A stretch of DNA of 43,730 bases from an uncultured Nitrosopumilaceae archaeon (lineage in GTDB: Archaea > Thermoproteota > Nitrososphaeria > Nitrososphaerales > Nitrosopumilaceae): positions 1 to 43,730 of the forward strand of contig CALCPD010000059.1 of NCBI GenBank assembly GCA_937897875.1. Reading direction: 5' to 3'. The notes under the pieces are model-generated. The model was given only the letters and a program-made list of their open reading frames with translations. It had not been told where the DNA came from and ran no database searches. Position numbers and translations under genes: made by a program. Position 1 is the stretch's first letter; each line of letters opens with the position of its first letter. This document shows positions 16,963-29,000 of the stretch, piece after piece.

Positions 16963-18162
16963 ATGACTCAAAAAGGAATTCTTGCATTTTCTGGAGGATT
17001 AGATACTTCAGTAGTAGTAAAGTATCTACAAGAAGAACATGACATGGATGTCATTACAGTTACGGTAGATGTGGGTCAAGGAGATGATGCAAAAAAAATT
17101 GCTGCAAAAGCAAAAAAATTAGGAGTCAAAAAACATTACAATATTGATGCAAGAAAAGAATTTGTTGATGACTACATATTTCCAGCAATTAAAGCAAATG
17201 CACTTTATCAAAAAAAATATTGTTTAGCAACAGCTCTTGCTAGGCCATTAATTGCAGAAAAAGTTTTAGAAATTGCAAAAAAAGAAAAAGTAACATCACT
17301 AGCACATGGATGCTCAGGTAAAGGAAATGATCAAGTACGTTTTGATATTACATTACGTTCAGGTTCAGATCTTCCAATAATAGCACCAATTAGAGATAAA
17401 AATTTAGATAGAGATACAGAATTAAAATTTGCAAATAAACATGGAATAGAAATAGATTCAGTTGCAAAAAAATTTAGCATTGATCAGAATTTATGGGGAC
17501 GTGCAATTGAAGGAGGGGTTTTAGAGGATCCATATAATGAACCACCAGATGATGCATTCATTTGGGTAAAAACAAAAGACTTGCCAGATAAACCAACATA
17601 TTTAGAAATTAAATTTGAAAAAGGAATTCCAGTAGAAGTAGATAAAAAAATAAAAGGTTCACAAAAAATTATTGAGTATATCAATAAAAAAGCAGGTGCA
17701 GCTGGTGTTGGAATAGTAGATCATATTGAAGATCGAGTTGTTGGAATTAAATCACGTGAAGTGTATGAAACTCCTGCAGCAACTTGTCTAATTGAAGCAC
17801 ATGCAGATTTAGAAAAAATGGTCCACACTAAACATGAAAATAAATTTAAATCAATTATTGATGATGAATGGGCACATCTAGTATATTCAGGCCTATGGCA
17901 AGATCCTCTCAAATCAGATCTTGATGGATTTATTGAAATGTCTCAAAAACCAGTTTCAGGCACTGTCAAACTAAAGATGTACAAAGGAAGCTTAAGAGTA
18001 GTTGGTAGAAAATCAAATAATTCATTATACAGTCACGATATTGCGACTTATGGGGTAGAATCCACATTTGATCAAAGATTAGCAAAAGGATTCGTTGAAT
18101 TATGGGGAATGCAGTCAACGGAAGCTAATAAATTACAAAAGAAAAGGAAATCAAAAACATGA
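16963..18162 (+). CDS. argG: Argininosuccinate synthase
   Basis: It joins citrulline and aspartate to argininosuccinate using ATP, in the cytoplasm. From the preferred start it begins MTQKGILAFSGGLDTSV; AFSGGLDTS is the PP-loop ATP site (residues 8-16). HGCSGKGNDQVRF (about 115-127) is the second ArgG signature. The protein is 399 aa, normal for the family. A frame extension to ATG 16942 adds seven residues (MLRKRCF) before the PP-loop strand and would lie within about 10 nt of the TATA element, so 16963 is preferred. The stop overlaps the start of lysW (ATGA), which ties arginine synthesis to that carrier protein. Confidence 0.94.
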   Translation: MTQKGILAFSGGLDTSVVVKYLQEEHDMDVITVTVDVGQGDDAKKIAAKAKKLGVKKHYNIDARKEFVDDYIFPAIKANALYQKKYCLATALARPLIAEKVLEIAKKEKVTSLAHGCSGKGNDQVRFDITLRSGSDLPIIAPIRDKNLDRDTELKFANKHGIEIDSVAKKFSIDQNLWGRAIEGGVLEDPYNEPPDDAFIWVKTKDLPDKPTYLEIKFEKGIPVEVDKKIKGSQKIIEYINKKAGAAGVGIVDHIEDRVVGIKSREVYETPAATCLIEAHADLEKMVHTKHENKFKSIIDDEWAHLVYSGLWQDPLKSDLDGFIEMSQKPVSGTVKLKMYKGSLRVVGRKSNNSLYSHDIATYGVESTFDQRLAKGFVELWGMQSTEANKLQKKRKSKT

Positions 18163-18326
18163 ACTGTCCAGAATGTGACGCAAAACTCAACATCCCAGAA
18201 GATGCCTCAGTTGGAGAAATAGTCTCCTGCCCTGATTGTGGAGCTGACTTTGAAATTTCTAAAAAAGAAGGATCAAATATTGAGCTTAAACAAGCAGAGA
18301 GCGTAGGCGAAGACTGGGGAGAGTAA
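18159..18326 (+). CDS. lysW: LysW amino-group carrier protein, copy 1 (EDWGE)
   Basis: The 55 aa carrier protein has a zinc-ribbon half made of CPEC (residues 3-6) and CPDC (24-27), then an acidic tail ending VGEDWGE. In characterised LysW the terminal Glu side chain is amide-linked to the amino group of alpha-aminoadipate or glutamate, which protects it through the pathway. The terminal Glu is present here. The gene overlaps argG upstream (ATGA) and the ligase gene downstream (TAATG), a tightly coupled argG-lysW-ligase set that points to arginine synthesis from glutamate. It is short enough to be missed by automatic gene calling. Confidence 0.93.
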   Translation: MNCPECDAKLNIPEDASVGEIVSCPDCGADFEISKKEGSNIELKQAESVGEDWGE

Positions 18327-19183
18327 TGTCAAAAATTAGCATTGTTTTTGACCGTTTAAGAACGGAAGAAAAAATGCTCAAAAAGGAAGCCGCCGAATTA
18401 GGACATACTGCAGTAATGCTCGATGCCAAAATTACACAAATCAACACAGAAACTAAAAAAGAAGATTTAGATTTAGGTGATGTAGTATTAGAAAGATGTG
18501 TAAGTTATTTTAGAGGTCTTCATTTTACATCAGCTTTAGAATTTTTAGATATTCCAGTTTTGAATAAGTTTGATGTTGCACATACTTGTGGAAATAAAAT
18601 GTTTATGACATTACTTTTGAAAAAAAATAATATTCCAACACCGAAAACATATTTTTCATTTTCAAGTGAAAGTGCAACAGAAAATTTAGAAAAAGTTGGA
18701 TATCCATTAGTTATCAAACCAGTGATAGGTAGTTGGGGAAGAGGAGTTATGCCAATTAAAGACAAAGATGCTATGGATGCAATTGTTGAAGTTAGAGAAA
18801 TTACAGATAGTCCTCACGATAGAATTTATTATTTACAGGAAGTTGTAAAAAGACCTCCAAGAGATATAAGAATAATTACAATTGGAGATGAGCCAATTGC
18901 TGGAATGTATAGAAAATCAACAGGAGGTTTTAAAACTAATATTGCATTAGGTGCAGATCCAGAAATTTGTGAGATTACAAAAGAAATGGAAGAAATGGCA
19001 ATTAAAGCATCAAAAGCAATGGGAGGAGGAATTTTAGGAGTAGATATGATGGAGGATGAAGAAAAAGGAATAGTTGTACATGAAGTTAACAACACAGTAG
19101 AATTCAAGGGATTAGCAAAAGTTTCAAAAAGAAACATACCAAAAGAAATGATACAATTTGCATTAGATTATACTAGAAAATAA
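18326..19183 (+). CDS. argX: LysW-glutamate ligase (ArgX-type)
   Basis: This 285 aa RimK-related ATP-grasp ligase is predicted to attach glutamate to LysW, opening arginine synthesis. The N-terminal domain begins SKISIVFDRLRTEEK. ATP-grasp motifs include VIKPVIGSWGRGV (about 130-142), YLQEVVKRPPRDIR (about 171-184) and the metal-binding HEVNNTVEF near residue 255. In the substrate loop it has GGFKTNIALGA, whereas the second copy in this window has EHWKTNMALGG. From memory, HW is found in alpha-aminoadipate ligases (LysX of Thermus) and GF in glutamate ligases (ArgX). With argG as partner, ArgX is the better call. The start codon overlaps the lysW stop. Confidence 0.85.
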   Translation: MSKISIVFDRLRTEEKMLKKEAAELGHTAVMLDAKITQINTETKKEDLDLGDVVLERCVSYFRGLHFTSALEFLDIPVLNKFDVAHTCGNKMFMTLLLKKNNIPTPKTYFSFSSESATENLEKVGYPLVIKPVIGSWGRGVMPIKDKDAMDAIVEVREITDSPHDRIYYLQEVVKRPPRDIRIITIGDEPIAGMYRKSTGGFKTNIALGADPEICEITKEMEEMAIKASKAMGGGILGVDMMEDEEKGIVVHEVNNTVEFKGLAKVSKRNIPKEMIQFALDYTRK

Positions 19184-19201: not shown

Positions 19202-19531
19202 TCATCTAGGAAAATAAAACATCACAGCAATGCCGATTAAAACTATAATAGAACCAAGAATTTCAAATTTATCAGGTTTTTTCTTATCTATCCAATAGCC
19301 CCACAATAATGAAGATACAACAAAAATTCCACCATATGTTGCATATACTTTTCCAAAATTTTCAGGTTGTAAAGTCATTATCACACCATATGAAAATAAG
19401 ATTAATCCTCCAATTACTCCAATAATTTTTCCTTGGTGATTTTTCAACCATCTCCAGATCAGATATCCTCCACTAATTTCCAATACTGCAGCAAAAAAGA
19501 AAATACCTAGAGAGGTTATGGAGTCAATCAA
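19202..19531 (-). CDS. UPF0060 (YnfA-like) small membrane protein B
   Basis: This 109 aa protein has four predicted membrane helices and the UPF0060 hallmarks: AAVLEISGGYLIWRWL (helix 1), VYATYGGIFVVSSLLWGY and DKFEILGSIIVLIGI. The family is related to small multidrug resistance transporters; the substrate is unknown. Start is TTG 19531, overlapping the stop of the upstream paralogue (TTGA) and preceded by GGAG, so the two are translationally coupled and probably made in a fixed ratio. It is convergent with the ArgX gene. Confidence 0.83.
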   Translation of the reverse strand: MIDSITSLGIFFFAAVLEISGGYLIWRWLKNHQGKIIGVIGGLILFSYGVIMTLQPENFGKVYATYGGIFVVSSLLWGYWIDKKKPDKFEILGSIIVLIGIAVMFYFPR

Positions 19532-19887
19532 ATTTGTTCTCCTTTTCTAGGATAGTAAAAAATTATTAAAATTCCAATTACTGCAATAATTGTTCCAATT
19601 ACATCATATTGATCAGGAGGTATTCCATCAATTAACCAACCCCAAAAAACAGACATTACAATAAACACACCACCATATGCGGCATAGATTCTATGAAAAT
19701 GGGTTTTTTGAAATGTTGGGACTACACCATAAAGAAACAATACAAATCCACCTAATGCACCCAACATCCAACTAAAATCATTTCTTAACCACAGCCAAAC
19801 AAGATACCCTCCACCAATTTCTAGAAATCCTGCAGTGACAAATAGAAGTAAAGATGTTAAAATATTTTTTGGAGACAATCTATTCAC
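19528..19887 (-). CDS. UPF0060 (YnfA-like) small membrane protein A
   Basis: The 119 aa protein is a paralogue of the next gene: AGFLEIGGGYLVWLWLR, RIYAAYGGVFIVMSVFWGW and DQYDVIGTIIAVIGI align position by position. It has four predicted helices and a short basic C-terminus. Start is GTG 19887. Two different UPF0060 proteins made as an overlapping pair suggest a heterodimer, as in paired small multidrug resistance transporters. Function is not known. Confidence 0.83.
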   Translation of the reverse strand: MNRLSPKNILTSLLLFVTAGFLEIGGGYLVWLWLRNDFSWMLGALGGFVLFLYGVVPTFQKTHFHRIYAAYGGVFIVMSVFWGWLIDGIPPDQYDVIGTIIAVIGILIIFYYPRKGEQI

Positions 19888-19971: not shown

Positions 19972-20919
19972 TTAAGATGTTTTATTTAATTTTGAAATTA
20001 ATGCAGCGTAAATAAAAGGTAGAATTGTAGTTACCTCTGCATGTAAAGTAGATTGTCGTGCAATTTTTGTCACCTTACCCCAGGAAATTGCTTCTCTAAC
20101 TAATGCCCCACTTAAACTTCCATCAAATTCTTGTGCAGTGGTAATATAGAAAGCATAATCTAATCCTTCCCGATATTGATTCCACCATAAGGTATGATGT
20201 TTGGAAATACCTCCACCAATCATAAATGCTCCTGACTTTTCTGCTTTGAAAATATATTCTGAAAGTAAATCTGCATCTCCAATTAAATTTAATTTAAAAT
20301 CTCTATGGCTCTGTATAAACATCCAGATCTGACTTCCAACTGCACCATCCATAATTCCTGGAACAACTACGCTAACATTATTTTTATTTGCCCAATATAG
20401 AAATGAATCTTCTCCCAAATGTCTTCCAATCATTTTACAAATTTCGGCAGTTGTCATTTCCCTTACTCCATTTTTGTATTCTTCTTCAAGGAACAATTGC
20501 ATTTTTTCTTCAATTAATGGACCATAATTTTCCATTGGAACTAATACATTTCCCAATCTATGAATATTTTGATCTGCTAATTCATTATCATCCATTGTAA
20601 ATGATCCTTCGTTATAATGCGAGTAATGTTTTGCAATATCATGATCCAATGCACCGCAAGTAGTAATTGCTACATCAAACCATTTATTTTTGATCATATC
20701 TTTAATGATTCCTCGTAATCCTGTAGATACAACTGCCCCCACAAATGAGACAAATTTCAAACATTTATCATCAGAAATCATTTTGGTCAAAATATCTAAT
20801 CCGTCTGAAAGATTTACGGATTCAAATCCACCTGACTTGGATAATTCATCAAAAATTTTTTCTATGGATGTGTTTGAATTTATTTCAATATCTTTTACTG
20901 GACGACCTATCTCAACCAT
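19972..20919 (-). CDS. dys: Deoxyhypusine synthase
   Basis: It transfers the aminobutyl group of spermidine to a lysine of translation factor aIF5A, the first step of hypusination. The 315 aa length is typical of archaeal enzymes. The catalytic lysine is Lys282 in AISWGKV, preceded by FDGSLSGALVREA, matching the family active site. NAD-site segments VSFVGAVVSTGLRG (57-70) and ITTCGALDHDIAKHY (85-99) are conserved. VPGIMDGAVGSQIW (187-200) is also diagnostic. It is transcribed divergently from argC across a 169-bp spacer and is unrelated to the amino-acid genes around it. Confidence 0.93.
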   Translation of the reverse strand: MVEIGRPVKDIEINSNTSIEKIFDELSKSGGFESVNLSDGLDILTKMISDDKCLKFVSFVGAVVSTGLRGIIKDMIKNKWFDVAITTCGALDHDIAKHYSHYNEGSFTMDDNELADQNIHRLGNVLVPMENYGPLIEEKMQLFLEEEYKNGVREMTTAEICKMIGRHLGEDSFLYWANKNNVSVVVPGIMDGAVGSQIWMFIQSHRDFKLNLIGDADLLSEYIFKAEKSGAFMIGGGISKHHTLWWNQYREGLDYAFYITTAQEFDGSLSGALVREAISWGKVTKIARQSTLHAEVTTILPFIYAALISKLNKTS

Positions 20920-21088: not shown

Positions 21089-22135
21089 ATGAAAGTGGGA
21101 GTAGTAGGCGCATCAGGTTACGTAGGAGGAGAAACACTGCGTCTTCTTGTAAATCATCCAGATGTTGAAATTAGCATGGTAACATCAAGACAACATGTTG
21201 GAGAATATTTACACAGAGTTCAGCCTAGTTTGAAAGGATTTACAGATCTTACTTTTTCAGAATTAGATTATGATAAGTTAACAGATCAATGTGATGTAGT
21301 ATTTACAGCAGTACCACACGGAACTGCTACTGAAATTGTAAAAGCACTCTATGATAGAGGTATCAAAGTAATTGATTTGAGTGCAGATTACAGATTGCAT
21401 AACCAAGAAGCATATGACAAATGGTATGGTTGGACCCATCCACATCCAGATTATTTACCAAAATCAGTTTTTGGAGTTCCAGAATTACACAGAGAAGAAA
21501 TTAAAAAAGCACAACTCGTATCATGTCCAGGTTGCATGGCAGTGACATCAACATTAGCACTTGCACCATTAATTAAAAATGACCTCATAGATACTGATCA
21601 CATAATTGTAGATTCAAAAATCGGATCCTCGGGTGCAGGTTCAGGTTCTGGAACAGCACATGCAATGCGTGCAGGAGTTATCAGACCATACAAACCAGCA
21701 AAACATAGACACACAGGTGAAATTGAACAGGAGTTAAGTGAAATTGCAGGAAGTAAAATCAAAGTATCAATGAGTCCACATGCAGTGGATGTTGTCAGAG
21801 GTATTTTATGTACAAATCATACATTTTTGAAAAAAGACATTAGTGAAAAAGAGTTATGGAAAATATACCGTGAATCTTATGGTGATGAAAAATTTATTAG
21901 ATTAATTAGAGACAAGAAAGGTCTTTACAAATTCCCAGATCCAAAATTCTTAGTTGGTTCAAACTTTTGTGATATTGGATTTGATTTCGATGAAGATAAC
22001 AATAGACTAATTGCCTTATCAGCATCAGATAATTTAATGAAAGGTGCAGCAGGTTCTGCGATTCAAAACATGAATGTAATGTGTGGTTTTGATGAAATGA
22101 GTGGACTAAGATATACACCGCTAACTCCGGTTTAG
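21089..22135 (+). CDS. argC: LysW-aminoacyl-phosphate reductase (LysY/ArgC)
   Basis: It reduces the acyl-phosphate of LysW-bound aminoadipate or glutamate to the semialdehyde with NADPH. The 348 aa protein has the dinucleotide motif VGASGYVGGE (6-15) and catalytic Cys149 in SCPGCMAVTS; most ArgC enzymes have NPGCYPT, so the Met is a feature of this carrier-linked branch. HPHPDYLPKSVFGVPELHRE and KIGSSGAGSG are further family segments. It heads an operon with the kinase, aminotransferase and an Lrp-type regulator. As only one copy is present, it probably serves both lysine and arginine pathways. Confidence 0.91.
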   Translation: MKVGVVGASGYVGGETLRLLVNHPDVEISMVTSRQHVGEYLHRVQPSLKGFTDLTFSELDYDKLTDQCDVVFTAVPHGTATEIVKALYDRGIKVIDLSADYRLHNQEAYDKWYGWTHPHPDYLPKSVFGVPELHREEIKKAQLVSCPGCMAVTSTLALAPLIKNDLIDTDHIIVDSKIGSSGAGSGSGTAHAMRAGVIRPYKPAKHRHTGEIEQELSEIAGSKIKVSMSPHAVDVVRGILCTNHTFLKKDISEKELWKIYRESYGDEKFIRLIRDKKGLYKFPDPKFLVGSNFCDIGFDFDEDNNRLIALSASDNLMKGAAGSAIQNMNVMCGFDEMSGLRYTPLTPV

Positions 22136-22137
22136 AA

Positions 22138-22941
22138 ATGATCACAATTAAAATTGGTGGAAGTGTAGTAGATGATTTACATCAATCAACAATTTCAGAT
22201 ATTAAAAAAATTGCAGAAACAGAGGGAATCATAATTGTTCATGGCGGAGGAAAAGAAGTTACTAAAGTTTGTAAGCAACTTGGTAAAGAACCAAAATTTG
22301 TAACATCACCAAGTGGAATTAAAAGTCGATATACAGACAAAGAAACTGCAGAAATTTTCACAATGGTAATGTCAGGGAGAATAAATAAAACAATTGTTCA
22401 AATGTTACAAAAAAATGGAATTAATGCAATTGGATTATCAGGAGTTGACGCTAGAGTAATAGAAGCAGATAGGAAGAAGAAATTACTGATCGTCAATGAA
22501 AAGGGTAGAAAACAAGCAATTGACGGCGGATATACAGGTAAAATTAAAAATGTGAATTCAGGATTTATCAAATCATTACTCAAACAAGGATTAACACCAG
22601 TAATTTCACCAATTGCAATTAGTGAGGAATCAGAATTTCTCAATGTGGATGGAGATAGAGCTGCTGCATATGTTGCAGGAAGTGTAGGAAGTGATAAAGT
22701 ATTATTCATTACAAATGTAGATGGACTTTTAATGGATGATGAGGTGGTACCAAAATTGACATTAGCACAAGCAAAAGAAATTAGACCAAAAATAGGTCCA
22801 GGTATGGAAAAAAAGATTTTAGCTTCAACAGAAGCACTGGACATGGGAGTAAAACAAGCTTTTATTGCAAATGGTCAAAAAGAGAATCCTATTTCTACAG
22901 CTATTGCACATGATAATTGTACGGTGATTGAACATGAGTGA
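22138..22941 (+). CDS. argB: LysW-amino acid kinase (LysZ/ArgB)
   Basis: It phosphorylates the carboxylate of LysW-bound aminoadipate or glutamate. This 267 aa amino-acid kinase starts MITIKIGGSVVDD; Lys5 and the GGS loop bind phosphate, VHGGGKEV (34-41) is the second glycine loop, and FLNVDGDRAAAYVA (about 162-175) is the nucleotide/substrate region. GPGMEKKILAS near residue 220 is also conserved. It follows argC by 2 nt and overlaps the start of the aminotransferase. The length matches the LysZ branch. Confidence 0.91.
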   Translation: MITIKIGGSVVDDLHQSTISDIKKIAETEGIIIVHGGGKEVTKVCKQLGKEPKFVTSPSGIKSRYTDKETAEIFTMVMSGRINKTIVQMLQKNGINAIGLSGVDARVIEADRKKKLLIVNEKGRKQAIDGGYTGKIKNVNSGFIKSLLKQGLTPVISPIAISEESEFLNVDGDRAAAYVAGSVGSDKVLFITNVDGLLMDDEVVPKLTLAQAKEIRPKIGPGMEKKILASTEALDMGVKQAFIANGQKENPISTAIAHDNCTVIEHE

Positions 22942-24109
22942 AGATCAACATATGGGTAATCTCTATCAGAGATTTCCAGTTACAATTGAAAAAGGTGTAG
23001 GAGCTCATGTTTGGGACATAGAAGGAAAAGAATACATTGATTGTATGGGCGGATACGGTGTCGCATTAGTTGGACATCAAAATCAAAGAGTTAACAATGC
23101 AATCAAAGAACAAGTTGACAAAATAATTACAGTTCATAGTTCATTATACAATAAAACACGAGAAGGATTTTTGAAAAAACTAATTGAAATGGCTCCAGAA
23201 GGACTAACACAAGTACATCTTAACAACAGTGGTGCAGAAGCTGTTGAAGCTGCAATGAAATTTGCAAGAAAGTTTACCGGAAAGAAAGGAATGGTTGCAA
23301 TGAAAGGATCATACCATGGAAAATCATTTGGAGCATTATCATTAACATTTAATCCAAAATATAGAAAAGCATTTGCACCGCTAGTTGAAAAAGTTTCTTT
23401 TGCATCATTTGGAGATATGGATTCACTACGTTCAGTAATTGATGAAGATACAGCATTCATTATTTTAGAACCAATTCAAGGAGAAAGCGGAATAGTTGTT
23501 GCACCAGATGGGTTCTTACAAGAAGTTAGAAAACTATGTGATGAAAAAGGAATTCTATTAGTTTTTGACGAAATTCAAGCAGGATTAGGAAGAACAGGAC
23601 GATTATGGGCAGGGGAACATTGGAATACAGTACCAGATATTTTATGTCTTGCAAAAGGAATTGCAGGAGGAGTACCAATGGGTGCCACATTAGTTAAACC
23701 AGGTATTTTAGCTGCGATAAGTAAGGGAGAACATTCATCAACATTTGGAGGAAATCCAATATCATGTGCAGCAGGAATTGCAGCACTAACATCATTAACA
23801 GAAGATGGGTTGATAGAAAATTCTAAGAATATGGGAGAAATGTTCAGACAGGGATTAGAGAAATTAAAAGAAAAACATACAATGATTAGAGAAATTAGAG
23901 GAAAAGGATTAATGATTGGAATTGAAATGAAATTTGAAGTAAAAGATATTCTAATGGGATTAATTCAAGAAGGTGTTTTAATGTTATATTCAGGAAGAAA
24001 TATTCTAAGAATATTACCACCATTAGTAATTAAAGAAGAAGATGTAACAAAAGTTTTACATGCTTTAGATATAGTAATAACAAAAGAGGAAAAAAAGAGA
24101 GATGTTTAA
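22934..24109 (+). CDS. argD: LysW-semialdehyde aminotransferase (LysJ/ArgD)
   Basis: This PLP class III aminotransferase converts LysW-bound semialdehyde to LysW-lysine or LysW-ornithine using glutamate. From the preferred ATG (22934) it has 391 aa. The PLP lysine is Lys241 in LCLAKGIAGGVP, the PLP Asp is in LVFDEIQAGLGRTG (about 209-222), and NNSGAEAVEAAMKFAR is the phosphate-site segment. The frame can be extended two codons to TTG 22928. ATG 22934 gives an 8-nt overlap with the argB stop, typical of coupled genes. It overlaps the following lrp gene by 8 nt. Confidence 0.91.
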   Translation: MSEDQHMGNLYQRFPVTIEKGVGAHVWDIEGKEYIDCMGGYGVALVGHQNQRVNNAIKEQVDKIITVHSSLYNKTREGFLKKLIEMAPEGLTQVHLNNSGAEAVEAAMKFARKFTGKKGMVAMKGSYHGKSFGALSLTFNPKYRKAFAPLVEKVSFASFGDMDSLRSVIDEDTAFIILEPIQGESGIVVAPDGFLQEVRKLCDEKGILLVFDEIQAGLGRTGRLWAGEHWNTVPDILCLAKGIAGGVPMGATLVKPGILAAISKGEHSSTFGGNPISCAAGIAALTSLTEDGLIENSKNMGEMFRQGLEKLKEKHTMIREIRGKGLMIGIEMKFEVKDILMGLIQEGVLMLYSGRNILRILPPLVIKEEDVTKVLHALDIVITKEEKKRDV

Positions 24110-24637: not shown

Positions 24638-25804
24638 ATGAAGGATCCGAATCACTATGCAGATATCTATAACTCATATGAAAAAAATCCAAAAAAAATT
24701 AGAGTATTAGATAGTACTCTTAGAGAAGGAGAACAACATCCAGGTGTTTCATTTACAAATAAACAAAGAATTCAGATTGCATGGATGCTAGATTATTTTG
24801 GAGTTGATCAAATTGAAATATCACCAGTAGTATCAAAAGATCATCAAGAAGCAACTAAAACAATCATCAAACAAGGTTTAACAGCAGACATAGTTTCTCA
24901 TGGACGTGCACTTAAAGAAGATATAGATATTTCACTAGATTGTGATGCAAAATGGTGTGCAGCATATTTAGGAATTTCAGACATACATCTAAAAGATAAG
25001 CTGAGAATTTCTAGAGAACAAGCTTTGGAAAGAGCTGTAGAAACTGTAGAGTATGCAAAATCCCATGGATTAAAAATTAGATTTACGGTAGAAGATGGTA
25101 GTAGGGCAGAACCGGAATTCCTACTAACTGTCTGTAAAGCTATTGAAGAAGCAGGAGTAGATAGAATTAGTCTACCAGATACAGTAGGAATTTTACGTCC
25201 AATTGGAATGTATAATTTTGTAAAGAAAGTTAGAGAAGTAGTAGACGTTCCATTGGATGCACATGTTCATAATGATATTGGATTTGCAGTAGCAAATGCA
25301 TTTTCAGCATGTGATGCAGGAGTAGATCAAATTCATACAACTATTGATGGGATTGGTGAAAGAACAGGAATACCACCACTTGCAGAAGTTGCAGTAGCAT
25401 TAACTTACCTATACAAATCACCAAATGATTTTAGATTAGATATGCTACTAGACTTATCAAAATTAATTGAAGATTATACAGAAATCAAGCCATATGATTC
25501 AAAACCAATTGTTGGATCATCAGCATATAAGCACAAAGCAGGTACACATCTTGCCGCAATTCTCAAAAATCCAGCAGCCTATGAACCAATCCCACCAAGA
25601 GCAGTAGGAAATAGAAGAAGAATCGTATTTGGAGAATTAGCTGGAAAAACAGGTGCAGCCTACTTAATGTCACTATTAGGATTAGAAAAAGACGATGAAG
25701 GAGCTAAAGCAGTGGCATCAGGACTAAAGAATCTGAGAATGGGAGATCTAATTGAAATTCCACTCGAAGATAGACTTGAAAAAAAGATTATTGAAGATAA
25801 ATAA
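24638..25804 (+). CDS. Homocitrate synthase
   Basis: It condenses 2-oxoglutarate with acetyl-CoA to homocitrate, the entry step of lysine synthesis through alpha-aminoadipate. At 388 aa it matches Thermus/Sulfolobus homocitrate synthases. VLDSTLREGEQHPG (23-36) includes the metal Asp25, and DAHVHNDIGFAVANA (about 206-220) gives the metal histidines. The C-terminal part HKAGTHLAAILKNPAAYEP with the following PPRAVGNRR matches homocitrate synthase better than isopropylmalate or citramalate synthase, because it lacks the long leucine-regulatory domain. It is followed after 22 nt by the second lysW, placing this cluster in the lysine branch. Isopropylmalate synthase is the main alternative. Confidence 0.86.
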   Translation: MKDPNHYADIYNSYEKNPKKIRVLDSTLREGEQHPGVSFTNKQRIQIAWMLDYFGVDQIEISPVVSKDHQEATKTIIKQGLTADIVSHGRALKEDIDISLDCDAKWCAAYLGISDIHLKDKLRISREQALERAVETVEYAKSHGLKIRFTVEDGSRAEPEFLLTVCKAIEEAGVDRISLPDTVGILRPIGMYNFVKKVREVVDVPLDAHVHNDIGFAVANAFSACDAGVDQIHTTIDGIGERTGIPPLAEVAVALTYLYKSPNDFRLDMLLDLSKLIEDYTEIKPYDSKPIVGSSAYKHKAGTHLAAILKNPAAYEPIPPRAVGNRRRIVFGELAGKTGAAYLMSLLGLEKDDEGAKAVASGLKNLRMGDLIEIPLEDRLEKKIIEDK

Positions 25805-25826: not shown

Positions 25827-25994
25827 ATGGCAAAATGTGAAGAATGTGATGCAGATATCTCCATACCAAGTGATGCACTTGAAGGAGAAATTGTAACATG
25901 TCCCGAATGTGGAGCAAGTTTTGAATTAGCAAAAGGTTCAGACGGTTTTGATCTAAAGCCTGCCCAAACGGTTGGCGAGGATTGGGGACAGTGA
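25827..25994 (+). CDS. lysW: LysW amino-group carrier protein, copy 2 (ends EDWGQ)
   Basis: The 55 aa paralogue of the carrier at 18159-18326 has CEEC (4-7) and CPEC (25-28) for the zinc site and an acidic tail ending VGEDWGQ. The last codon is CAG where copy 1 has GAG, so the terminal residue is Gln instead of the Glu that carries the substrate in known LysW. Everything else about the gene looks intact: it follows homocitrate synthase, and its stop overlaps the GTG start of the partner ligase (GTGA). Either it needs deamidation, works differently, or a base is wrong. It is short and easily missed by gene callers. Confidence 0.92.
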   Translation: MAKCEECDADISIPSDALEGEIVTCPECGASFELAKGSDGFDLKPAQTVGEDWGQ

Positions 25995-26833
25995 ATCCTG
26001 ATGTTACAATTCTTTACGATTCCATACGTTGGGAAGAAAAAGCTCTACTAGAAGCAGGTAAAAAAAAAGACATCAACATACAGATGGTTGATTGTAAAAA
26101 ACTAGCTTTAGATTTAGAAAAAAAACCTGAAGATTACGGAGTAGTTATTCAACGATGTGTTAGTTACTATAGAAATTTACATTCTACAGCAGCTCTTGAA
26201 GGATTAGGAGTTAAAGTAATCAATTGTCTAAATACAGGTGTCTTTGCAGGAAATAAATTATTTACACATATGTTACTGAAAAAATTAGGAGTTCCAACAC
26301 CAGATGCAACGGTTGCATTTTCAAAGGATGCAGCATTAGAAGCACTAGAAACAGGTGGATATCCAAGAGTGATCAAACCAACAGTTGGTAGTTGGGGAAG
26401 ATTAATTTCAAAATTAAACGACAAAGATTCTGCTGAAGGTATTATTGAAAGTAGGGAAACAATGTATCCAATTTATCAAATCCATTATTTAGAAGAATTT
26501 GTAAAAAGACCTCCAAGAGACATTAGAGCAATCATGGTAGGAGATAAAATAGTTGCTGCAATTTATAGAAAATCAGAACATTGGAAAACAAATATGGCAT
26601 TAGGTGGAACTGCTGAACCATGTAAAGTAACACAAGAAATGGAAGAAATGTGTATCAAAGCAAAAAATGCAGTTCAAGGGGATATCGTAGGAGTAGATTT
26701 AATGGAAAGTGAAGAAAAAGGATTAGTGGTTCATGAAGTTAACAATACAACAGAGTACAAAAATACTGTAAGGGTATGTGATGTCGACATACCTGCTCTA
26801 ATGCTGGATTATGCAATGAAAGTAGAAAGATAA
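25991..26833 (+). CDS. lysX: LysW-aminoadipate ligase (LysX)
   Basis: This ATP-grasp ligase is predicted to join alpha-aminoadipate to the LysW encoded just upstream. The preferred GTG start at 25991 overlaps the lysW stop; a TTG at 25982 would add only three residues. The protein is 280 aa. VIKPTVGSWGRLISKL, YLEEFVKRPPRDIR and HEVNNTTEYKNTVR are ATP-grasp and metal motifs. The substrate loop reads SEHWKTNMALGGTAEPC, close to what I recall of Thermus LysX, which supports aminoadipate rather than glutamate. Compared with copy 1, the second glycine of GSWGRG is not followed by Gly. Confidence 0.87.
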   Translation: MNPDVTILYDSIRWEEKALLEAGKKKDINIQMVDCKKLALDLEKKPEDYGVVIQRCVSYYRNLHSTAALEGLGVKVINCLNTGVFAGNKLFTHMLLKKLGVPTPDATVAFSKDAALEALETGGYPRVIKPTVGSWGRLISKLNDKDSAEGIIESRETMYPIYQIHYLEEFVKRPPRDIRAIMVGDKIVAAIYRKSEHWKTNMALGGTAEPCKVTQEMEEMCIKAKNAVQGDIVGVDLMESEEKGLVVHEVNNTTEYKNTVRVCDVDIPALMLDYAMKVER

Positions 26834-26835
26834 AA

Positions 26836-27963
26836 TTGGACAATCATTTTACAGTTACACCAAGATTTGCAACAAAGATGTTAGAGAAAGCACTTAGACT
26901 TTACACACCATCACTTAGTGAAAAACCAATGGCAGAATTTTTAGCAGATAAATGCGATGATTTAGGATTTGAAGATATACAAATTGATGAGGTAGGAAAT
27001 GTTATTGCAAAAAAAGGATCAGGATCACCAAAAATTATGTTATGTGGTCACATGGATGTAGTTCCAGGAAAAGTGAAAGTTAGAACAGAAGGAGATTCAC
27101 TATATGGTCGTGGAGCATCAGATGCAAAAGCACCATTAATGGCAATGTTATTTGCTGCAGCATCAATTGAGAAAAATCAAGGTACAGTTACTTTTGTAGG
27201 AGCAGTTGATGAAGAAGGAAATGCAATAGGAATTAAAAATATTGTAAAAAAAGAAATGGATATTGATTATGCAGTATTCGGTGAGCCAAGTGGAATCAAA
27301 CAAGTTACAATTGCATACAAAGGCAGATTAGCAATTAATCTAAAAATTAGTGTTCCAGATAGTTCACATGCAAGTGCCCCATGGCTTTCAAAAAATGCAA
27401 TTGAAGAATCAATAATATTTGTAAAAGAATTAAAAGAAAAACTAGAATCAAATCAAGAAGGGAAAACAAAAGGAATGTTGTTAACTGCAACAATGACTGA
27501 AATTAAAGGAGGAACAAGTCACAATATCACACCAAAAGAATGTGAAACTCTTTTTGACATTAGAATTCCAGTTGATATGAATTGTAAAGACATTGAACAA
27601 AAAATTGCAACATTAGTTAAAGAAATTGCCCAAAAAAGAGAGGTAGAAGCATTTTATTCAATTTTAGATGAAACTGAACCATTTGAAGCACCACACAATT
27701 CATCTCTAGTTAGGGCATTCACATTAGGAATCATGCAAGTAGAAAAATCAAGACCAACTTTAATTAGAAAAACAGGTACAGGAGACATGAATGTTTTAGG
27801 CAATCAGTGGGAAATTCCAGTTGTAACATATGGTCCAGGAGATCCACATGAAGCCCATACAATAGATGAAAAAGTATCAATTACGGAGTATCTTAAAGGC
27901 ATAGAAATTCTCAAAGCAACTCTACAGCATTTAAAAAGACTACATGATAAAAAATTGCAATAA
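26836..27963 (+). CDS. lysK: LysW-lysine/ornithine hydrolase (LysK/ArgE-type, M20)
   Basis: It releases lysine or ornithine from LysW in the last carrier-linked step. The 375 aa M20 metallopeptidase has HMD (His72, Asp74, in LCGHMDVVPG), the bridging Asp97 (GRGASDAKAP), catalytic Glu126-Glu127 (DEEGNA) and the dimerisation domain in the middle. The frame begins with TTG 26836, two nt after lysX; ATG 26878 is an alternative that would lose the first 14 residues. A single such gene in the window suggests that one hydrolase serves both pathways. A generic M20 deacylase is the alternative, but context is strong. Confidence 0.88.
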   Translation: MDNHFTVTPRFATKMLEKALRLYTPSLSEKPMAEFLADKCDDLGFEDIQIDEVGNVIAKKGSGSPKIMLCGHMDVVPGKVKVRTEGDSLYGRGASDAKAPLMAMLFAAASIEKNQGTVTFVGAVDEEGNAIGIKNIVKKEMDIDYAVFGEPSGIKQVTIAYKGRLAINLKISVPDSSHASAPWLSKNAIEESIIFVKELKEKLESNQEGKTKGMLLTATMTEIKGGTSHNITPKECETLFDIRIPVDMNCKDIEQKIATLVKEIAQKREVEAFYSILDETEPFEAPHNSSLVRAFTLGIMQVEKSRPTLIRKTGTGDMNVLGNQWEIPVVTYGPGDPHEAHTIDEKVSITEYLKGIEILKATLQHLKRLHDKKLQ

Positions 27964-29000
27964 TGTTATCGTTTGTAGGATTAGGAATTTCAGGCTTCGA
28001 GTCTATTCCAATTGAAGGGTTAGAGGCAATATCAAAAGCAGATATTGTATATCTAGAACAATTTACCAGTCCCATTGGAAAATCAGATGTAGATAAAATT
28101 CAAAATGCAATCAAAGGAGAATTCATACCGGCAAAAAGATGGTTAGTAGAAGACGGTAAGGAAATTTTAGAAAAATCAAAAGAAAAAAATGTGGTCCTAC
28201 TAGCATACGGTGATCCATATATTGCAACAACACATATTGAATTACGAACAAGAGCAATTGAATTAAAAATAGAGACACGTTCCATACATGCATCATCATC
28301 ACTTACATCTATGATAGGAGAATGTGGTTTACATTTTTACAAAGTTGGAAAAATTGCAACTATAATGAGTGAAATGAAATCACTCACATATCCATACTAC
28401 ATAATTTATAAAAATATCATAGAAGGTAATCACACAGTATTATTATTAGAATATAATCAAAACAAAGATTTTTTCTTAGATCCTAAGGATGCACTAAAGG
28501 AATTACTAGAAACAGAAGAAGGTCAAGGAAGAAAAGTGCTCACAGAATCAAGTTATGCCATTGTCGCTTCAAGAATTGGTTTTAAGGATCAGACAATAGT
28601 TTCAGGTAAATTATCCAGTCTAGCACAAACAGATTTTGGAAAACCACCACATACAGTAATCATTCCAGGTAGATTGCATTTTACAGAATCAGATGCATTA
28701 AAATTATTTGGTCAATGTATAGATGAACCATTTGATAATTCGGAAAAAACAGAAAAAATTTCAAAACAAATGATGGAAAAATATGTTCCCATGGTAAGAG
28801 AAGCTCTTGAAGAAATCATACCATATTATAAAAATCAAAAAGAATTTGAAGTAATTTTAGATAATGCAGAACGATATATTGATCAGGCAGAGATATTTCT
28901 ATCTGAAGGTCGAGACGAAAATGCAATTTTGAGTATAGGGTATGCTGATGGACTAGTTGATGCATTAAGATTGGCAAAAGGCCTTGAATTTAAAATGTAA
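27963..29000 (+). CDS. dph5: Diphthine synthase fused to DUF357
   Basis: It methylates the modified histidine of elongation factor aEF2 during diphthamide synthesis, using AdoMet. Residues 1-255 are the Dph5 methylase: MLSFVGLGISG at the start, YGDPYIATTH (about 80-89) and HASSSLTSMIGECGLHFYK. Residues 263-345 form a separate alpha-helical domain like archaeal DUF357 (MMEKYVPMVREALEEI, then ILDNAERYIDQAEIFL and SIGYADGLVDALRLAKG). The domain is a stand-alone protein in many archaea. The start overlaps the lysK stop (TAATG), so it is transcribed with the lysine genes although the functions are unrelated. Confidence 0.9.
   Translation: MLSFVGLGISGFESIPIEGLEAISKADIVYLEQFTSPIGKSDVDKIQNAIKGEFIPAKRWLVEDGKEILEKSKEKNVVLLAYGDPYIATTHIELRTRAIELKIETRSIHASSSLTSMIGECGLHFYKVGKIATIMSEMKSLTYPYYIIYKNIIEGNHTVLLLEYNQNKDFFLDPKDALKELLETEEGQGRKVLTESSYAIVASRIGFKDQTIVSGKLSSLAQTDFGKPPHTVIIPGRLHFTESDALKLFGQCIDEPFDNSEKTEKISKQMMEKYVPMVREALEEIIPYYKNQKEFEVILDNAERYIDQAEIFLSEGRDENAILSIGYADGLVDALRLAKGLEFKM

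Follow-up and report, generated by a model that had tools for sequence, protein, structure and literature searches.

In the LysW/ArgW systems the substrate is attached to the carrier protein through the gamma-carboxyl of the terminal Glu, and a Glu54Ala exchange in the ArgW of Natrinema gari results in an arginine auxotroph; recognition of the EDWGE tail of the carrier is reported to be due to the GSWGR loop of the ligase, and in Sulfolobus acidocaldarius a single LysW reportedly works in both pathways (PMC10433800, in those parts of the text available to us). Pup, as described in the available part of a second source, is encoded with a C-terminal Gln (PupQ) in some species, the Glu gamma-carboxyl being the group that is ligated, and Dop both deamidates PupQ and cuts the Pup isopeptide (PMC8599861).

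A metabolic model of N. maritimus SCM1 places LysW (Nmar_1287) beside argX and has its LysW lysine route added by gap filling; the last residue of LysW is not mentioned in the available part of that paper (PMC6038301). In the literature searched, which left most subscription LysW papers outside, the ending EDWGQ was not found, nor was any connection of LysW with deamidation in the texts as far as they were accessible. Here we describe a lysine-branch carrier with this ending, its distribution and the enzymes which presumably act upon it.

The carrier pair and its gene neighbourhood

The window, by which we mean the whole 43,730-nucleotide stretch from an uncultured Nitrosopumilaceae archaeon that was analysed, encodes two LysW carriers on the plus strand. 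The lysine-branch carrier lysW2 (25827..25994), a protein of 55 aa recognised as an ORF and by profile and phmmer searches, ends in GEDWGQ, whereas its arginine-branch paralogue (18159..18326; NF041070, 90.7 bits, cut-off 75) ends in GEDWGE. The original prediction had pointed out this difference, and the ORFs bear it out: Gln55 of lysW2 is specified by CAG (25989-25991) followed by TGA (together 25989..25994, plus strand), and the last Glu of the paralogue by GAG followed by TAA. The in-frame GTG of lysX at 25991 overlaps the end of lysW2.

All the pathway genes given here with positions lie on the plus strand. The lysine-branch carrier is situated between a homocitrate synthase-like gene (24638..25804; Pfam HMGL-like and HCS_D2, with LysS_fung_arch at 378.7 bits falling below its cut-off of 413.55) and lysX (25991..26833, the start being taken as GTG 25991), the ATP-grasp LysW ligase (TIGR02144, 333.4 bits, cut-off 275.6). 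It is followed by lysK (26836..27963), an M20 [LysW]-lysine/ornithine hydrolase (TIGR01902, 281.9 bits, cut-off 163.1) and the candidate deamidase discussed below. The arginine-branch carrier is found between argG and the ligase gene argX (18326..19183; TIGR02144, 291.9 bits), which comes directly after it. Common to both branches is the [LysW]-aminoadipate/glutamate kinase gene lysZ (22138..22941; NF010662, 305.7 bits, cut-off 194), and presumably also the reductase gene argC/lysY (21089..22135; TIGR01850, 419 bits) and the aminotransferase gene lysJ (22928..24109; TIGR00707, 431.8 bits, cut-off 410.05). Between argX and argC the minus strand specifies two tandem small membrane-like proteins (19202-19887), apparently paralogues of one another. 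Two further genes in or beside the arginine/lysine block (19972-20919 and 27963-29000), the second of which follows lysK in several relatives, encode what we take to be likenesses of deoxyhypusine synthase and diphthine synthase.

As regards its family, lysW2 scores 89.4 bits against the carrier model NF041070 (carrier_LysW_Arch, cut-off 75) and 46.8 bits against Pfam Zn_ribbon_LysW (cut-off 27), matches the LysW of 3VPB by phmmer at 6.9e-11, and in translation possesses two CxxC pairs, CEEC and CPEC, giving four predicted zinc-binding Cys. The TIGR01206 lysW equivalog (cut-off 53.2) is missed both by lysW2 (31.9 bits) and by the paralogue ending in Glu (36.6 bits). The three matching LysW sequences with solved structures (3VPB, 3WWL and 5K2M) all end in E, and lysW2, which encodes EDWGQ, lacks the C-terminal EDWGE with its substrate-bearing Glu. 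By sequence homology, then, it is a member of LysW/ArgW, which would be a textbook Glu carrier only if processed. The adjoining LysX has the GSWGR loop (residues 133-137; 26387..26401, plus strand), and its best PDB match is 3VPD (3.9e-64) followed by 1UC8 (7e-59), presumably the Thermus structure.

Distribution and switching of the terminal residue

A sequencing error, which the original prediction wished to see excluded, can be discounted since CAG is shared by many independent genomes and CAA is used in other lineages. In a pattern search of 400 genomes of the order, EDWGQ followed by a stop was found in 277 (hand count of the table), distributed over the three families holding ammonia oxidisers as 205 of 232 (f1), 6 of 7 (f2) and 66 of 70 (f8), part of the f8 sites being arginine rather than lysine carriers. 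A further amoA-bearing family, f3, had none in two genomes and thirteen other families had none in 89. By our own arithmetic approximately 0.006 chance matches are expected per genome; the control with the pattern read backwards gave none throughout the order and, among 398 genomes of the phylum, three matches for each of the Q and E searches. Tabulating the last residue in relatives, as had been proposed, thus shows the Gln form to be common in these three families, where most of the lysine carriers seen carry Gln in place of Glu.

The 32 genomes of f1, f2 and f8 without a pattern match were searched with the protein, and the full lysine-type carrier was recovered from seven (G191, G311, G025, G032, G021, G257 and G083), ending in E in each. 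It was not found in the other 25, of which 15 gave no match and ten an arginine-type carrier or a fragment only. One of these ten, the f1 genome G269 (a single contig of 3.2 Mb, 96% complete), has an arginine-type carrier only, the lysine type being apparently absent. Relatives with GAG at the terminal codon had been named in advance as a reason for dropping the matter; they do exist (G191, G311, G025, G032 and G021) but form a minority, and the oddity stays.

Across the phylum Q sites occur in 87 of 398 genomes, a figure which still includes G429 with its non-LysW match, and E sites in 246 of 398. Outside f1, f2 and f8 the Q matches belong to f25 (8), f30 (4), f48 (1), f51 (1) and f24 (1, not a LysW). 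Q carriers are present in the Caldarchaeales as well. Among the matches listed, named records with Q carriers include Nitrosopumilus, Nitrosopelagicus, Nitrosotalea, Nitrosotenuis, Nitrosarchaeum, Cenarchaeum, Nitrososphaera, Nitrosocosmicus, Nitrosopolaris, Nitrosocaldus, Caldarchaeum and Terraquivivens. From their genera, Nitrosopumilus maritimus and Nitrososphaera viennensis would be expected to have the Q form too. The scan of named records, which required V/I-type and then G/A codons before EDWGQ, produced at least 118 stretches, among them 109 with LysW (blastp), six with a truncated LysW (by eye) and three false ones. Pattern matches which are not LysW were kept out of the carrier counts, namely G429 (L138), the TGG site in G043 and G536, C352 of G235, L176, L189 and L243.

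A screen for amoA (PF12942) was positive in 7 of 28 genomes tested: both of the two tested in each of f2, f3 and f8, one of four in f1, and none in the other families tested. Ammonia oxidation as the cause of the Q state is weakened as a candidate, because f3 combines amoA with E carriers and the Caldarchaeales, which lay outside the amoA screen, have Q. In the genome of the window itself (G000; 1.22 Mb, 93% complete), as in G025 and G032, PF12942 was not found, though relatives have it; this is probably a gap in the assembly, the other explanation being an organism that does not oxidise ammonia.

The terminal position admits two residues. Of the 74 strong NF041070 matches in 52 chosen genomes (families f2, f3, f8, f25, f30, f48 and f51, not a random draw), 24 have E as their last residue and 50 have Q by hand count, strong meaning at least 70 bits with six weak matches below 25 bits left out, and each of the 74 falls on an EDWG[E/Q]-stop site. 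A non-random set of 142 unique carriers, taken from loci of the protein and HMM searches and without the second carriers of many genomes from the first relative search, comprises 76 ending in E, 66 ending in Q and no other ending.

In 31 of the 52 chosen genomes every LysW ends in Q. These are eleven f8 genomes with one LysW and eight with two, three of f30, eight of f25, and G519. Three of those with one LysW (G043, G077 and G085) consist of a single contig; in G043 (L144) argX comes immediately after argG, without an intervening carrier, and the single LysW adjoins lysX. Since such genomes exist, the Q form must be the working carrier for both lysine and arginine synthesis in all-Q genomes, if these pathways are run on LysW. 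It had been proposed earlier that the Gln protein might be a non-loaded partner, regulatory or structural, with the E carrier serving both branches; the window genome, which also has an E carrier, would agree with this, but several genomes have no other LysW at all and we regard the idea as practically excluded. One LysW each was observed in the ten tested genomes of the f8 genus concerned (G043, G077, G085, G099, G115, G137, G142, G149, G171 and G180).

Nor is this a single odd carrier of the lysine branch, as first described, but rather a trait with two states which recurs within the carrier family of these archaea. The reverse of the arrangement in the window, with the arginine carrier Q and the lysine carrier E, is found in G105, G128 and G225, and both carriers are Q in g51, G057 and G205. 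Both also end in Q in G120 (L140/L141), of the f1 genus g27. The lysine carrier of G057 (L142) has approximately seven extra residues before the EDWGQ tail region (KDSSKKGPDAFEIKPAQ).

Purifying selection acts on the Q carrier (dN/dS of ca. 0.08 over 16 such carriers from the genus) as on the E form (0.07 for 14 arginine-branch carriers of the family), and we rejected a relaxed or dead gene on the strength of the former value. Constraint from the lysW-lysX overlap was likewise rejected, as the GTG overlap persists in relatives with GAG, and TAA or TAG is the stop codon of several Q carriers.

The history of the trait was followed on a tree of 196 partner ligases, a quick one with stars on 62 of its 193 inner branches, a few meetings of long branches and rows enriched for Q. 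At least 13 changes between E and Q are needed (11 among LysX and two among ArgX), at least nine of which are forced by starred branches. The label is strongly clustered, with 13 changes against 57.9 in shuffles; Gln persists within clades. Inside a Q clade of Nitrosopumilus there is a return to E (G191, G311, G025 and G032), the ligases being 95-96% identical to a Q partner. Recurrent switching of this kind supplies natural pairs of carriers for comparison.

Partner enzymes and the probable fate of the terminal Gln

Gln has no free gamma-carboxyl. A carrier tipped with it points, on the sequence evidence, to an activation step in lysine synthesis which is not described in the literature searched. 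The reading that we favour is that lysW2 encodes a working carrier made as a Gln pro-form, which would be deamidated to Glu by one agent or another and then gamma-loaded, and we put its chances at slightly better than even. LysW2 would be made with terminal Gln, the side-chain amide would be removed once to give Glu, LysX would join aminoadipate to the gamma-carboxyl of the Glu form as in the known LysW systems, and after this one deamidation the carrier would cycle as Glu. Because the site takes only Gln or Glu and switches repeatedly while the ligase is nearly unchanged, the finished carrier is expected to be the same in either state, that is, to carry Glu. The original prediction had suggested a Pup-like deamidation before loading, and among its proposals this appears to be the best fit to the comparative data, those set beside it being disfavoured or practically excluded.

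One of the latter was a different ligase chemistry. The GSWGR loop is kept in 125 of 126 ligases with Q partners and in all 70 with E partners, the exception (L126, in G495) having GSHGR, and 32 positions are invariant (≥97%) in both groups. Columns were screened by mutual information, by an 80% rule and for disjoint residue sets, and in none of them were the residue sets of E and Q partners disjoint, nor did their 80% residues differ. A ligase change tracking Q was therefore rejected, as no column separates the states over all 196 partners. Residue 56, which sits beside the conserved R55 and S58 in LysX/ArgX, leans with the state: Cys occurs there in 69 of the 70 ligases with E partners but in 100 of the 126 with Q partners, and it is missing from 17 of 18 Q-linked ArgX, most losses being in the Q-linked ArgX of one clade. 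When ArgX is taken alone, columns 11, 14, 140, 150 and 211 differ between E and Q. The one E-linked ArgX belonging to the same clade as the Q-linked ones, L289 (G068), has the residues of that clade at the differing columns, so the ArgX signal follows kinship. With no LysX/ArgX column cleanly separating the states, and with ligases 95-96% identical serving E and Q in one genus, a change in ligase chemistry is disfavoured.

One form which such chemistry might take is loading on the alpha-carboxyl. RimK ligates the alpha-carboxyl of ribosomal protein S6, and LysX of the window also matches TIGR00768, "RimK family alpha-L-glutamate ligase", at 286.9 bits; aminoadipate could thus be peptide-bonded to the alpha-carboxyl of the terminal residue with Gln staying Gln, which would account for a stable Gln and for the lean of residue 56, if it is read in this way. 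Against this stand the ligase alignment, the return from Q to E with a 95-96% identical ligase, the swapping of states between arginine and lysine carriers, and the fact that the downstream enzymes are shared. LysZ gave one match in each of 18 genomes searched, and LysK one match in 14 of 15 genomes of f1, f2 and f8, including the window genome; G037 has a second, weak M20 match of 55.9 bits, and in G416, G519 and G484 the M20 matches number two or three. With one LysZ and mostly one LysK, the same enzymes must act on E- and Q-coded carriers, which favours one linkage and leaves alpha loading improbable.

No more probable in our estimation is an amide exchange by LysX, modelled on the transferase reaction of glutamine synthetase: with ADP and phosphate the Gln amide would be phosphorolysed to gamma-glutamyl phosphate, from which aminoadipate displaces ammonia without a separate deamidase. 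In favour of this, LysX is an ATP-grasp enzyme which retains the conserved positions, and Dop, though of another fold, acts with a phosphate bound at the catalytic site (PMC8599861, as far as its text was available). The likeness of E and Q partners agrees with such an exchange but with deamidation elsewhere too. We know of no such activity in LysX or ArgX, which also counts against the exchange.

Mistranslation is very improbable. In organisms which form Gln-tRNA via amidated Glu-tRNA(Gln) some CAG might be read as Glu, and for a recycled carrier a small active fraction would suffice; GatD was above cut-off in all ten genomes tested. In the control, however, Sulfolobus and Haloferax, which carry E, were also GatD-positive; moreover most carriers would be wasted, and the switching between E and Q is not predicted.

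To return to deamidation of a Gln pro-form, LysK would be the likeliest agent. The LysK family cuts the gamma-glutamyl amide at the terminal residue of LysW, the normal substrate being LysW-Glu-gamma-NH-lysine or -ornithine. Gln in that position would consequently be the minimal LysK substrate, the smallest such amide (LysW-Glu-gamma-NH2). The window LysK matches Pfam Peptidase_M20 at 97.5 bits and has 5XOY, a [LysW]-lysine hydrolase, as its best PDB match (1.4e-55); it belongs to the TIGR01902 subfamily and falls below the cut-off of the [LysW]-lysine hydrolase equivalog NF003367 (283.1 against 363 bits). H72, D96, E126, E127 and E150, which we take to be the M20 catalytic residues, are each kept in all, or all but one, of the 81 aligned sequences (seven E-linked and 74 Q-linked). 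No gene marks the Q state, so the case for LysK draws on chemistry and analogy, and we propose it tentatively, at rather less than even chances which are a share of those given above to deamidation by any agent. M20 hydrolases could demand an amino-acid leaving group, and plain ammonia is none; in addition, the LysK-like matches of G519, where the carrier is Q, are all distant (33% identity). The pro-form reading as such has against it the lean of residue 56 with the state and the clustering of Gln within clades, its upkeep there being unaccounted for.

The chances given to deamidation by any agent also cover the case in which LysK is uninvolved and the Glu form might be produced by an amidase whose gene is unlinked, or by slow hydrolysis without an enzyme. 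A carrier needs only one conversion per lifetime, and the data name no particular agent. Of the genes present in the window, however, those which recur next to Q carriers all belong to the pathway, and no member of the Pup_ligase/Dop family (PF03136) was found in any of 20 genomes, with the control positive in Corynebacterium glutamicum. We consider such an agent rather unlikely, and a Dop homologue as the deamidase was rejected on the absence of its family from these 20 genomes.

Comparison with known systems

In most lysine carriers seen in three families of ammonia-oxidising archaea Gln stands where the ArgW of Natrinema needs Glu, and therefore lysine synthesis, and with it arginine synthesis in certain genera, involves in these highly abundant organisms either a step undescribed in the literature searched or another linkage. 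We infer deamidation and gamma linkage, and likewise LysK as the agent. The full proposal, for which our confidence stays below even, is that ammonia-oxidising archaea and Caldarchaeales may make an inactive Gln pro-form of their carrier, to be activated by LysK, the last enzyme of the pathway itself.

With the LysW/ArgW systems of Thermus, Sulfolobus, Thermococcus and Natrinema the window carrier shares its zinc-ribbon head, its EDWG tail and its place beside LysX/ArgX, and homologues of LysZ, ArgC/LysY, LysJ and LysK are found near it. What sets it apart from them is the Gln codon of lysW2 in the place of the terminal Glu that bears the substrate. The RimK/S6 alpha-L-glutamate ligases belong to the ligase family of LysX but ligate an alpha-carboxyl, and there is no clear sign of altered LysX chemistry here.

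The Pup/Dop/PafA system of actinobacteria differs in its parts: no sequence likeness of Pup to lysW2 was seen, the candidate deamidase here is an M20 hydrolase and the ligase an ATP-grasp enzyme, and the cargo is an amino acid and not a protein. It has in common with the window a small protein encoded with a C-terminal Gln and, by analogy with what is proposed for LysK, one hydrolase for both deamidation and isopeptide cleavage. If the proposal is true, the Pup/Dop logic would have been invented a second time in an unrelated system, with a single isopeptide hydrolase to license the carrier and also to set its product free.
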